NCBI GenBank assembly: GCA_020831485.1
Contig: JAFIGG010000002.1
Span: 62,001 to 126,000 of the forward strand
Length of the DNA stretch: 64,000 nucleotides
Direction of reading: 5' to 3'
From: Opitutales bacterium
Lineage (GTDB): Bacteria > Verrucomicrobiota > Verrucomicrobiia > Opitutales > Oceanipulchritudinaceae
Shown: piece by piece, positions 28,461 to 34,198 of the stretch
How the letters are laid out: each line of letters starts with the position of its first letter
Position numbering within the stretch: the first letter of the stretch is position 1
Position numbers and translations under genes: made by a program
The notes under the pieces: generated by a model
The model's input: only the letters and a program-made list of their open reading frames with translations
Database searches by the model: none
Told to the model about the DNA's origin: nothing

Positions 28461-29636
28461 ATGAAATCTGAAACCGATCTGCTGACTAACCCGAAAAACA
28501 GCATGACGCCGCGTCTTTTCGTTGCTGCGACGCGTCAGAATGATGGCAAGACGACAACCTGCCTGGGTCTGTACGCCGCCCTCCAGCAAGTTTACAGCAA
28601 GGTTGGTTACATCAAACCCATTGGCCAGCGTTTTATCGATATTGAGGGCTTGATGGTCGATGAGGATTCCTACCTCTTTGACCAGATTTATCCGGTTGGA
28701 ACACCGATTGAGGCGATGAGCCCAGTCGCGATCGACGCCACCTTTACCCGCCGTTTTCTGGACAACCCTGACGAAACCCATCCTCAGCTGGTCAACCGGA
28801 TCGTGAAGGCATTTGACCGGGCTGCCTATGAAAAGGATGTGATCATCATTGAAGGTTCAGGGCACGCCGGTGTGGGTGCCATCTGCGACCTCTCCAACGC
28901 ACAAGTGGCCAAGCTCCTGGGGGCAAAGGCGATAATAGTATCCCGCGGAGGCATCGGCAAACCGGTGGACGAAATAGCCCTGAATAAATCGCTCTTCGAC
29001 AAATATGGGGTGGAGGTTATCGGGGCAATCCTCAACAAGGTGCAGCCGGACAAAATCGAAATCGTCCGTAAATACACGACAAAAGCCCTAGAGCGCATGG
29101 GTGTGCCCCTTCTTGGATTGATTCCCGAACAGGAACAGTTGGCCCTGCCAAACATGAGCCAGATTGTGGAAACGGTCAATGGCCGTTGGCTCAATGCCCA
29201 GAAAATTGGCCGCCACAACCGTGTTACCCAAGTCGTGGTCGGTGCCATGACGCCTCAGGGGCTTCTCGAATACATCCGTCCAGGTGTCCTGATTATCACA
29301 CCCGGAGACCGTGAGGATGTCCTCTTGCTTGCCATTGCAGCTGCCGGCCTCAACAAGCAGCACATCCTTTCGGGCATCGTCCTGACGCGAAATATTTTAC
29401 CCTCGCCCCACCTCATGGAAATGCTCTCACAAACCGATATTCCAGTGGTGATCTGCAATGAGGAGAGCTATAAAGTCGCATCGCAAATCCACTCAATGAC
29501 GGTGAAGACCCAGCCAGAGGATGAAGACAAGATTCCTCTCATCAAAAAGCTGATCATGGAGAATGTCGCCATCGACAAACTCACTCACTACCTTGCCGAC
29601 AATTCTAGCGCAACTGGCGTCGGCGACGGTATTTGA
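28461..29636 (+). CDS. BioD-like P-loop ATPase with DRTGG domain (Pta regulatory half)
   Basis: A 391-residue protein equivalent to the N-terminal half of long-form phosphotransacetylases. The dethiobiotin-synthetase-like P-loop is ATRQNDGKTTTCLGL (~23-37), with IIEGSGHAGVG and IVSRGGIGKPVDE following. The DRTGG domain lies about residues 210-330, with VLIITPGDREDVLL recognisable. In E. coli Pta this region senses metabolites and controls the catalytic domain. It lies 30 bases after pta, so the two probably form a two-polypeptide enzyme. The 3' end overlaps the convergent STAS gene by 32 bases. Confidence 0.9.
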   Translation: MKSETDLLTNPKNSMTPRLFVAATRQNDGKTTTCLGLYAALQQVYSKVGYIKPIGQRFIDIEGLMVDEDSYLFDQIYPVGTPIEAMSPVAIDATFTRRFLDNPDETHPQLVNRIVKAFDRAAYEKDVIIIEGSGHAGVGAICDLSNAQVAKLLGAKAIIVSRGGIGKPVDEIALNKSLFDKYGVEVIGAILNKVQPDKIEIVRKYTTKALERMGVPLLGLIPEQEQLALPNMSQIVETVNGRWLNAQKIGRHNRVTQVVVGAMTPQGLLEYIRPGVLIITPGDREDVLLLAIAAAGLNKQHILSGIVLTRNILPSPHLMEMLSQTDIPVVICNEESYKVASQIHSMTVKTQPEDEDKIPLIKKLIMENVAIDKLTHYLADNSSATGVGDGI

Positions 29637-29946
29637 TCACAGCAATCTTGTCGAAGCGGGCAAACTCAAGCACTCTGTTGATAGCCGGGCTGGCCACCCG
29701 GATGACAAATTCCTTGTCTTTTTCCCGCAGCGATCGGCTTTCTGCAAGTAGCCAATTCAAGCCCATCGAGTCTATAACCCGTGCATTTCTAACATCCAGA
29801 TACAAAGAATCCCATGCATCGTCAGGATGCTGCTTCTTGATCTGCGATATACCTTCCCGCAAAGGCTGCGCCAAGGTTCCGGTCAATTCAGATTTGACCT
29901 CCACTTTTAACCGCCGTTTACGCCCGTCCAACTGTCCCGTAATCAT
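29605..29946 (-). CDS. STAS-domain anti-sigma factor antagonist
   Basis: A 113-residue single STAS domain of the SpoIIAA/RsbV type. The phosphorylatable serine is Ser60 in the motif RVIDSMGLNWLL (canonical DSxG). Such proteins switch between a phosphorylated inactive form and an unphosphorylated form that binds the anti-sigma kinase. It follows the response regulator-phosphatase-kinase gene after 35 bases and is its likely partner. The C-terminus is strongly basic (KYRRRRQLR), which is unusual. Its 3' end overlaps the convergent DRTGG gene. Confidence 0.9.
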   Translation of the reverse strand: MITGQLDGRKRRLKVEVKSELTGTLAQPLREGISQIKKQHPDDAWDSLYLDVRNARVIDSMGLNWLLAESRSLREKDKEFVIRVASPAINRVLEFARFDKIAVIKYRRRRQLR

Positions 29947-29981
29947 AAAATCGTCCCTTTAGATTGAATCCTTAGTCTGCC

Positions 29982-31541
29982 TCAGTTTGTAGGAGCCTCT
30001 TCAGGAGTGACATAAAAATCAAAAACCAGAGAAGTGCCCTTGTTCTCAATATTGAATTCGTCGCTCAGGTGCTGAACAATACCCAGCCCGAGTTGTCGGC
30101 CCTCCGGCAAATTGTCCAAATCACGTAAACGCTCAGAAATCTTGAAATTATGTCCTTTGCCCGGATCGTCGATACGCACCCGTACGCAGTTCGCCTCTCG
30201 ATTGTAGCTAATCAGCAAATGACAAAACTTTTCGGAGGATCCTGCACAACCATGGATGAGGGCATTCAACATGCCTTCGCGGATGCAGATCAAAAGGTCA
30301 TAAAGCCGGTCGCCGATTAGATCTTCCTCAAGCGCATACTGAAGACTTCGGCGCCAGACGGATTGAAGATTGTCGACATGCACATATTCTGCACCAGAAT
30401 ACTGCTCATCAATGATCGGTTCAAAAGTATTATTCACGGATGTAATGGGTTGAAGCTGATAGGTAAGACAAAGGATATCATCTGGTGGTGGGGGCTGATT
30501 TGCGTCGCCTGCTGGAATCGTTCCACGTGAGAGCCGGTAGGCTAAACTCAAGGGATTAATCCCGAGCTGGTCTGCGTAGTCGACCACCCCATCAGTGAAG
30601 ATATGAAGGAATGTAGCCTTTTCAAGCGGAACTTCCTGCTTTGCAAGCGGTAAATTTTCAAACCAGCCCAACGGATGAGTCCCGAGTTGTCCGCGGCGGA
30701 CCGATCCGTTAGCATCGCTAAGGTAAAAGGGCGGAAAACCACAATTGTAAACGGTCAGCAGTTGCTGCGTATAATCAATCTCAAACCAACTCATGGCCAG
30801 CGTCGACGGGACGACCGCAGCCTCCCGGATCAACTGGTTATTGAAGGAATGCAAGCTGGTCTCCAGAGCACTCCCCGACTCCACATGCCCGCGGAAAATC
30901 CCCTGAAAGTACGCCGCCACGTAGGCTGAGCGGAGATCATGCCCGGATACGTCACCTACAAGAATCATCAGGCGATTGTCATTATCGACCGTCCAGACAT
31001 TGATGAAATCTCCCCCCATTTTGTGCAAGGGGAGGTAACTGAGGCGAAAGCGCTCCCGCAAAGAGTCTGGTATATAACTGTTCAGCTGATGATCGACGAC
31101 CGACGCGTCATCCAAGGCGCGGGCCGAACTGAGGACGCGGCGCTGCCGGCGGGTCCTGTCAACCGCCCGCTCCATCGCATCGACCAAGGGTTTGTGCTGA
31201 ATGGGTTTCTCCAAAAAACCGGCGCCTCCGAGGTCCAGAGTCCGTTTAACCAACTCTTTTTCACCCTGCGCGGTTACCACTACGGTTGCCAGACTGGGAT
31301 CCTTATCCTGGATCCATTGCAAAAGTTCCAGCCCCGTCCGTTCGGGCATGCGAAAATCCGTCAAGACGGCGTCAATTTGATTGAAGCCATGCGTTTGGCA
31401 GGTTCGCTCCGCCTCAAAAGCGCTTTTTGCCGTAAGGGTCTGGAATCCAGCGGTTCGTAAACTGGTCTCGAAGTAGCACAGCCCCTCAGGATCGTCTTCC
31501 ACGACAAGCACACAGCCTCGACTCTCTCTGGAATCCACCAT
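29982..31541 (-). CDS. response regulator-PP2C phosphatase-HATPase kinase fusion
   Basis: A 519-residue cytosolic signalling protein with three modules. Residues 1-125 are a receiver domain (acidic pocket E15-D17, phospho-acceptor Asp62, Lys112). Residues ~165-365 are a SpoIIE/RsbU PP2C phosphatase with metal Asp residues in GGDF (176-179), GDVSGHD, TDGV and DD (354-355). Residues ~385-512 are an RsbW-type HATPase with N-box E422/N426/H430, G1 box DPGKG and G2 box GLGI. It thus holds the phosphatase and kinase that act oppositely on one STAS protein, whose gene lies just downstream. The input is presumably phosphorylation of Asp62 by an unknown histidine kinase. TATAAA lies 4 bases before the ATG. 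Confidence 0.92.
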   Translation of the reverse strand: MVDSRESRGCVLVVEDDPEGLCYFETSLRTAGFQTLTAKSAFEAERTCQTHGFNQIDAVLTDFRMPERTGLELLQWIQDKDPSLATVVVTAQGEKELVKRTLDLGGAGFLEKPIQHKPLVDAMERAVDRTRRQRRVLSSARALDDASVVDHQLNSYIPDSLRERFRLSYLPLHKMGGDFINVWTVDNDNRLMILVGDVSGHDLRSAYVAAYFQGIFRGHVESGSALETSLHSFNNQLIREAAVVPSTLAMSWFEIDYTQQLLTVYNCGFPPFYLSDANGSVRRGQLGTHPLGWFENLPLAKQEVPLEKATFLHIFTDGVVDYADQLGINPLSLAYRLSRGTIPAGDANQPPPPDDILCLTYQLQPITSVNNTFEPIIDEQYSGAEYVHVDNLQSVWRRSLQYALEEDLIGDRLYDLLICIREGMLNALIHGCAGSSEKFCHLLISYNREANCVRVRIDDPGKGHNFKISERLRDLDNLPEGRQLGLGIVQHLSDEFNIENKGTSLVFDFYVTPEEAPTN

Positions 31542-33389: not shown

Positions 33390-33523
33390 ATCCTGCAATA
33401 TAGCCTATTTTTCAGAATAGTCTTAAGATATTGGAGTATTTTGCGTGGAACGGACCGATTTTCATCATTGCCAAATGGTTCGGCCCGCTGGATAGTCACT
33501 TCCACACAGGCAGTGTTGCAGTC

Positions 33524-34198
33524 ATGCAGGTCGTTATTGTTGAAGATCAGGCTATGTTTAGAGAATTCATTCACCAGGTGGTGGAGCAGGATCTAAACCT
33601 GAGAGTAATAGGTGAAGCCTCCGATGGCGTTGAAGCGGTGGAGGTCTGCCGTAGGCTGCGCCCACAGTTGGTTATTTTGGATATCCTTATTCCCAAGCTG
33701 TCGGGTTTGCATGTGGCCCGGACCGTTATTGAGGAAATACAGGGGTGCAAGGTCTTGGCCCTTTCCGCTGAATTCGATCAAACCACTCTTCACCAGTTGC
33801 ATCAACTCGGGGTCCACGGGTTTGTCGACAAGACGGCCAAAACCACCGCAACCCTAAAAGAAGCCATTTCATTGGTTGCCAGTGGCAAGACCTATTATTC
33901 CGATGTGCTGCGCGAGACTATTTCCGCCATGCGCCAAACGCCATTCTCCTTTGAAAAAATCCTGACCCGGCGCGAGTCCCAGGTGCTCAGTTTTGTTGGC
34001 GGCGGCCTCACGGATTTGGAAATCGGCAAAATCATCGGTTTGAGTGCGTCATCGGTGCAGTCCCACCGCCGCAACCTGATGAAAAAACTCGACGTGCATA
34101 GTACGCCCGAGCTGATTCAGTTCGCGCAAGACAAAGGTTTCTGGAAGCCCGCCTTCAACCAGATGGAGTTGACCCACTCCTACCATATCTTCAAGTAG
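33524..34198 (+). CDS. LuxR/NarL-family response regulator
   Basis: A 224-residue two-component response regulator. The receiver domain begins MQVVIVEDQAMFRE and has the phospho-acceptor Asp in VILDILIPKLSG, with Lys in VDKTAK. The C-terminal LuxR-type helix-turn-helix is LTRRESQVLSFVGGGLTDLEIGKIIGLSASSVQSHRRNLMKKLDV. The ATG at 33524 is chosen because the longer in-frame start adds 31 residues unlike any receiver domain. No histidine kinase lies nearby, so its input is unknown. Confidence 0.94.
   Translation: MQVVIVEDQAMFREFIHQVVEQDLNLRVIGEASDGVEAVEVCRRLRPQLVILDILIPKLSGLHVARTVIEEIQGCKVLALSAEFDQTTLHQLHQLGVHGFVDKTAKTTATLKEAISLVASGKTYYSDVLRETISAMRQTPFSFEKILTRRESQVLSFVGGGLTDLEIGKIIGLSASSVQSHRRNLMKKLDVHSTPELIQFAQDKGFWKPAFNQMELTHSYHIFK

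Follow-up and report, generated by a model that had tools for sequence, protein, structure and literature searches.

In partner switching, a GHKL kinase of the RsbW/SpoIIAB type phosphorylates a serine of a STAS protein, and a PP2C phosphatase of the SpoIIE/RsbU type removes the phosphate. In RsbU and RssB, a coiled-coil linker transmits signals. The phosphatases of the RsbY/RssB type consist of a receiver (REC) and a PP2C domain without a kinase domain, and RsbW is a separate protein there. On the other hand, some systems combine the activities in a single chain. HsbR of Pseudomonas aeruginosa and CrsR of Shewanella oneidensis each contain a receiver, a PP2C domain and a kinase/anti-sigma domain, and they act on the partners HsbA and CrsA, respectively (PMC6482189, PMC5085249). 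HsbR is a kinase when unphosphorylated and a phosphatase when phosphorylated, so that one response regulator holds both activities, and the HATPase domains of CrsR and HsbR bind RpoS, which that of CrsR sequesters (PMC6482189, PMC5085249). The authors of these studies describe homologues of CrsR-CrsA as widespread in proteobacteria (PMC6482189, PMC5085249). In Vibrio fischeri, the response regulator SypE comprises a serine kinase, a receiver and a phosphatase and controls the STAS protein SypA, with biofilm formation as the output (PMC10120452). Rv1364c of Mycobacterium tuberculosis carries a PP2C domain and an RsbW-type kinase in one chain (PMC9138534).

The window analysed here is a stretch of 64,000 nucleotides from an Opitutales bacterium, lying on contig C60 of its genome. 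It encodes a 519-residue protein with the same three domains followed by a STAS protein, and the coordinates are collected in Table 1. The domain order REC-PP2C-HATPase is that of HsbR (PA3346-PA3347 for the HsbR-HsbA pair), and as in HsbR-HsbA, where the phosphosite of the anti-sigma antagonist HsbA is Ser56, the STAS partner is encoded next to the regulator. CrsR-CrsA likewise has the three domains and an antagonist. The order in SypE differs, being kinase-receiver-phosphatase. Rv1364c resembles the Opitutales protein in joining PP2C and kinase, but it has a PAS domain in place of the receiver and its STAS domain is fused into the same chain. The RsbY/RssB-type phosphatases share only the REC-linker-PP2C part. 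The surroundings also differ: the genes of HsbR-HsbA cluster with hptB and flagellar genes and those of CrsR-CrsA lie in the che1 chemosensory locus, whereas the Opitutales pair has no such neighbours and sits isolated among housekeeping genes. According to the original prediction, partner switching as a rule keeps phosphatase and kinase in separate proteins, which is right for Bacillus, while HsbR, CrsR, SypE and Rv1364c are documented fused forms.

Table 1. Features of the regulator-STAS locus, with positions in the window.
Feature	Position	Strand	Basis
Response regulator of 519 aa, REC-PP2C-HATPase, with an architecture like HsbR/CrsR	29982..31541	minus	ORF, Pfam, alignment, AlphaFold
Receiver domain, residues 11-123, phosphoacceptor D62	31173..31511	minus	Pfam PF00072; D62 invariant
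Predicted long linker helix, residues 116-154, low confidence 142-151	31080..31196	minus	AlphaFold model
SpoIIE/PP2C phosphatase domain, residues ~165-362 in model	30456..31049	minus	Pfam PF07228, invariance, model
RsbW/SpoIIAB-type HATPase (predicted kinase) domain, residues ~374-510	30012..30422	minus	Pfam PF13581, SpoIIAB alignment, invariance
113-residue STAS protein with S60 (IDSMG) as its predicted substrate serine	29605..29946	minus	Pfam PF01740, conservation

All three modules named in the original prediction were recovered in the order REC, PP2C, HATPase on a single chain, both by Pfam (Response_reg at residues 11-123, E 4.6e-21; SpoIIE/PP2C at 188-324, E 8.8e-21; HATPase_c_2 at 391-506, E 1.5e-10) and in an AlphaFold model, which has a mean pLDDT of 78 and folds into three separate modules. 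The catalytic residues, which had been called intact, were examined in an alignment of 22 sequences whose relatives have 27-47% identity, and no essential residue is lost. Invariant in it are D16, D62, T90 and K112 of the receiver, the PP2C metal residues D178, D197, D317 and D354/D355, and, in the HATPase, E422 and N426 of the N box, D459-G461-G463 of the G1 box and G485 of the G2 box; the second glycine of the G2 box varies among relatives. In an alignment with SpoIIAB, E422 and N426 match its N-box Glu and Asn. A chance or frameshift artefact as the origin of the open reading frame was excluded by the E-values of the domains and the existence of conserved relatives.

The STAS gene had also been correctly placed, with its DSMG motif, as had D62: the 113-residue frame has a STAS domain (E 1.7e-7) and begins 35 bp downstream of the regulator on the same strand, with AGGGA preceding its start within this gap. 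At the level of sequence, a receiver, a PP2C domain and a GHKL kinase domain with intact active-site residues are established in one protein, together with a co-encoded STAS protein carrying a conserved serine. Ser60 is the predicted phosphosite. The protein ends in a basic tail (YRRRRQLR, window 29605-29640), and most close orthologues (L009-L020) have a similar one, approximately [KR][FY]RRR[KRS]Q[TLV]R, which is absent from the STAS partners of more distant homologues. An AAA_26-DRTGG gene at 28461-29636 on the plus strand converges on the STAS gene, and the 3' ends of the two share 32 bp (29605-29636). A separate phosphotransacetylase gene precedes the AAA_26-DRTGG gene; what a long-form Pta combines is here divided between two genes, and this pair lies beside the switch in three relatives as well (L063, L064 and L067).

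We then compared the model with solved structures. The top Foldseek matches are to the REC-PP2C protein RssB of P. aeruginosa, and Rv1364c RsbU-RsbW (structure 3ke6) is among the best matches, ranked under further RssB chains. A profile search of solved structures likewise placed the REC-PP2C part closest to RssB in sequence, and no full-length structure of the HsbR/CrsR type was found among its best 60 matches. The VIA-align matches listed are receiver domains and are uninformative about the PP2C and HATPase modules. Since RssB of P. aeruginosa also works with a STAS protein, RssC, these matches could point to an RssB-like adaptor for sigma-S turnover instead of a partner switch. However, RssB has no C-terminal HATPase, and the regulator scores 62 bits in the NCBIfam family RssB_Pseudo, for which the cut-off is 700, and we regard the adaptor reading as very unlikely. 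What the regulator appears to have in common with RsbU and RssB is the long helix between its REC and PP2C modules, residues 116-154 in the model, which recalls their coiled-coil linker.

Instead, we consider it likely that the pair is a partner-switching module working like HsbR-HsbA and CrsR-CrsA, a likeness drawn from architecture and the published descriptions. The three modules, their intact residues and the adjacent STAS protein with a conserved serine make a bifunctional kinase/phosphatase set by the receiver plausible. In the proposed mechanism, a histidine kinase or an Hpt phosphorelay would phosphorylate D62, and the long helix after the receiver would pass this signal to the PP2C domain. 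With the direction taken from HsbR, the HATPase would phosphorylate Ser60 when D62 is unphosphorylated, and the PP2C domain would dephosphorylate it when D62 is phosphorylated, so that one polypeptide probably performs both reactions on the STAS serine. We propose that D62 phosphorylation sets this balance because of the switching known for HsbR, the established roles of RsbW and RsbU and the resemblance of the linker helix. The STAS protein may in turn switch between the HATPase and a second partner according to its phosphorylation state. As for the input, no kinase gene was recognised at the regulator-STAS locus, and a stand-alone Hpt protein is encoded elsewhere in the genome (contig C68), where nothing was seen to connect it with the regulator. 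About 1.9 kb from the switch, on the other strand, is a NarL/LuxR-type response regulator gene (33431-34198), and no histidine kinase was recognised beside it.

Kinase activity is a prediction here, as the boxes by themselves are not proof. The match of the HATPase domain to solved anti-sigma factors is weak overall, the best relatives in the PDB having E values of about 0.2, and such divergence could mean that just one catalytic activity acts on the adjacent STAS protein, with the HATPase serving mainly as a binding domain, anti-sigma or adaptor, of little or no kinase activity and a canonical RsbW elsewhere acting as the kinase. The genome does encode a separate RsbW of the ordinary kind, adjacent to an RsbV and close to a dCache-HAMP-PP2C phosphatase, and the title of one study on Rv1364c claims a loss of kinase activity. 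Nevertheless, all 22 sequences retain the N-box Glu and Asn as well as the G1 motif, which is not expected of a dead kinase; we find the single-activity explanation improbable.

The reading of one bifunctional regulator is also consistent with the gene order in relatives. Among the 12 other close orthologues, 11 have a STAS gene with the DS dipeptide directly 3' of the regulator, and at least 8 divergent copies adjoin a STAS gene as well; the two genes often overlap or are at most ~120 bp apart. In the twelfth orthologue (L011, identical to L059), the STAS frame is apparently broken (L059:4508-4850), possibly by a sequencing error in the assembly, and a gene resembling a SulP-type transporter follows it. 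The adjacency is not universal, because no STAS gene was recognised alongside 8 more distant homologues. The presence of a STAS neighbour is clustered on the protein tree (3 changes). Three of the homologues without one (L024, L026 and L027) are preceded by a gene encoding 417-475 aa, which in L024 and L026 contains a receiver-like segment by eye; it is possibly an input partner. In one relative (G023, L033:899-2962), STAS, REC-PP2C and RsbW-like HATPase_c_2 proteins are encoded as separate genes in a row, and this split arrangement supports the view that the 519-residue protein is a fusion of a phosphatase and a kinase that both serve the STAS protein.

The switch ends in its output. The likeliest candidate for the final target is a sigma factor that the HATPase domain would hold. 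As had been noted, no sigma factor lies nearby: contig C60 gave no match to sigma-70 region 2. Elsewhere the genome encodes a 340-residue RpoS-like sigma factor, whose best NCBIfam match, TIGR02394, scores 311 bits and is below the cut-off of 378.7, and a FliA-family sigma factor beside genes that resemble FlhF and MotA by eye. The RpoS-like sigma is the best candidate, and its holding by the HATPase may be put forward tentatively as the output step. The outputs of HsbR-HsbA are FlgM and HsbD; in the Opitutales genome, no FlgM was detected. A rival for this last step only, with the switch operating as described above, is that the STAS protein controls another effector, for example a diguanylate cyclase or a polysaccharide system. 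The lack of a sigma match on the contig is in line with it, as are the published non-sigma outputs of HsbA-P/HsbD and SypA, and the basic tail conserved among close orthologues could be a docking site. On the other hand, no effector gene was seen consistently beside the pair, and an RpoS-like sigma factor is present in the genome. We give a non-sigma output appreciable weight, somewhat short of an even chance. A stronger form, in which the module has been rewired in Opitutales to an output unlike those of Pseudomonas and Shewanella, with the basic-tailed STAS protein acting on a non-sigma target and some distant homologues of the regulator operating with no STAS partner beside them, appears rather unlikely.

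The named relatives of the regulator come from metagenome genomes of Opitutales/Puniceicoccaceae in the Verrucomicrobiota. When named genomes were scanned with close sequences, nine Opitutales/Verrucomicrobia loci and one Rokubacteria match confined to the receiver were obtained. All 17 genomes examined in the family have a match, 13 with a close orthologue and 4 with divergent copies only. Beyond the family the occurrence is sporadic, with 26 of the 89 sampled genomes of relatives having a match overall, and in a sample of the phylum 7 of 289 genomes exceeded the strict cut-off. In a tblastn search of plasmids, no record covered 80% of the regulator query; matches in Methylomonas and Parabacteroides plasmids were rejected, their annotated proteins of ~365-390 aa being too short for three domains.

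The original prediction of one receiver-set protein that adds and removes phosphate is thus plausible and well backed by its modules and residues, by the recurrent STAS neighbour and by the separate genes of the relative, but the novelty that it implied is not borne out: HsbR-HsbA, CrsR-CrsA, SypE-SypA and Rv1364c have already been described, and therefore a one-protein kinase/phosphatase switch is not a new kind. What would be new, judged by architecture and predicted way of working, is the HsbR/CrsR-type arrangement in another phylum, the Verrucomicrobiota, and no paper came up when the open literature was searched for partner switching in combination with this phylum. The interest that remains is in the output and in the basic tail of the STAS protein, which is specific to the lineage. 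The HsbR/CrsR-type switch would be extended to Verrucomicrobiota, and a compact system of two genes, which has a natural counterpart in split form, would suit the study of how a receiver sets the balance of kinase and phosphatase on one substrate.
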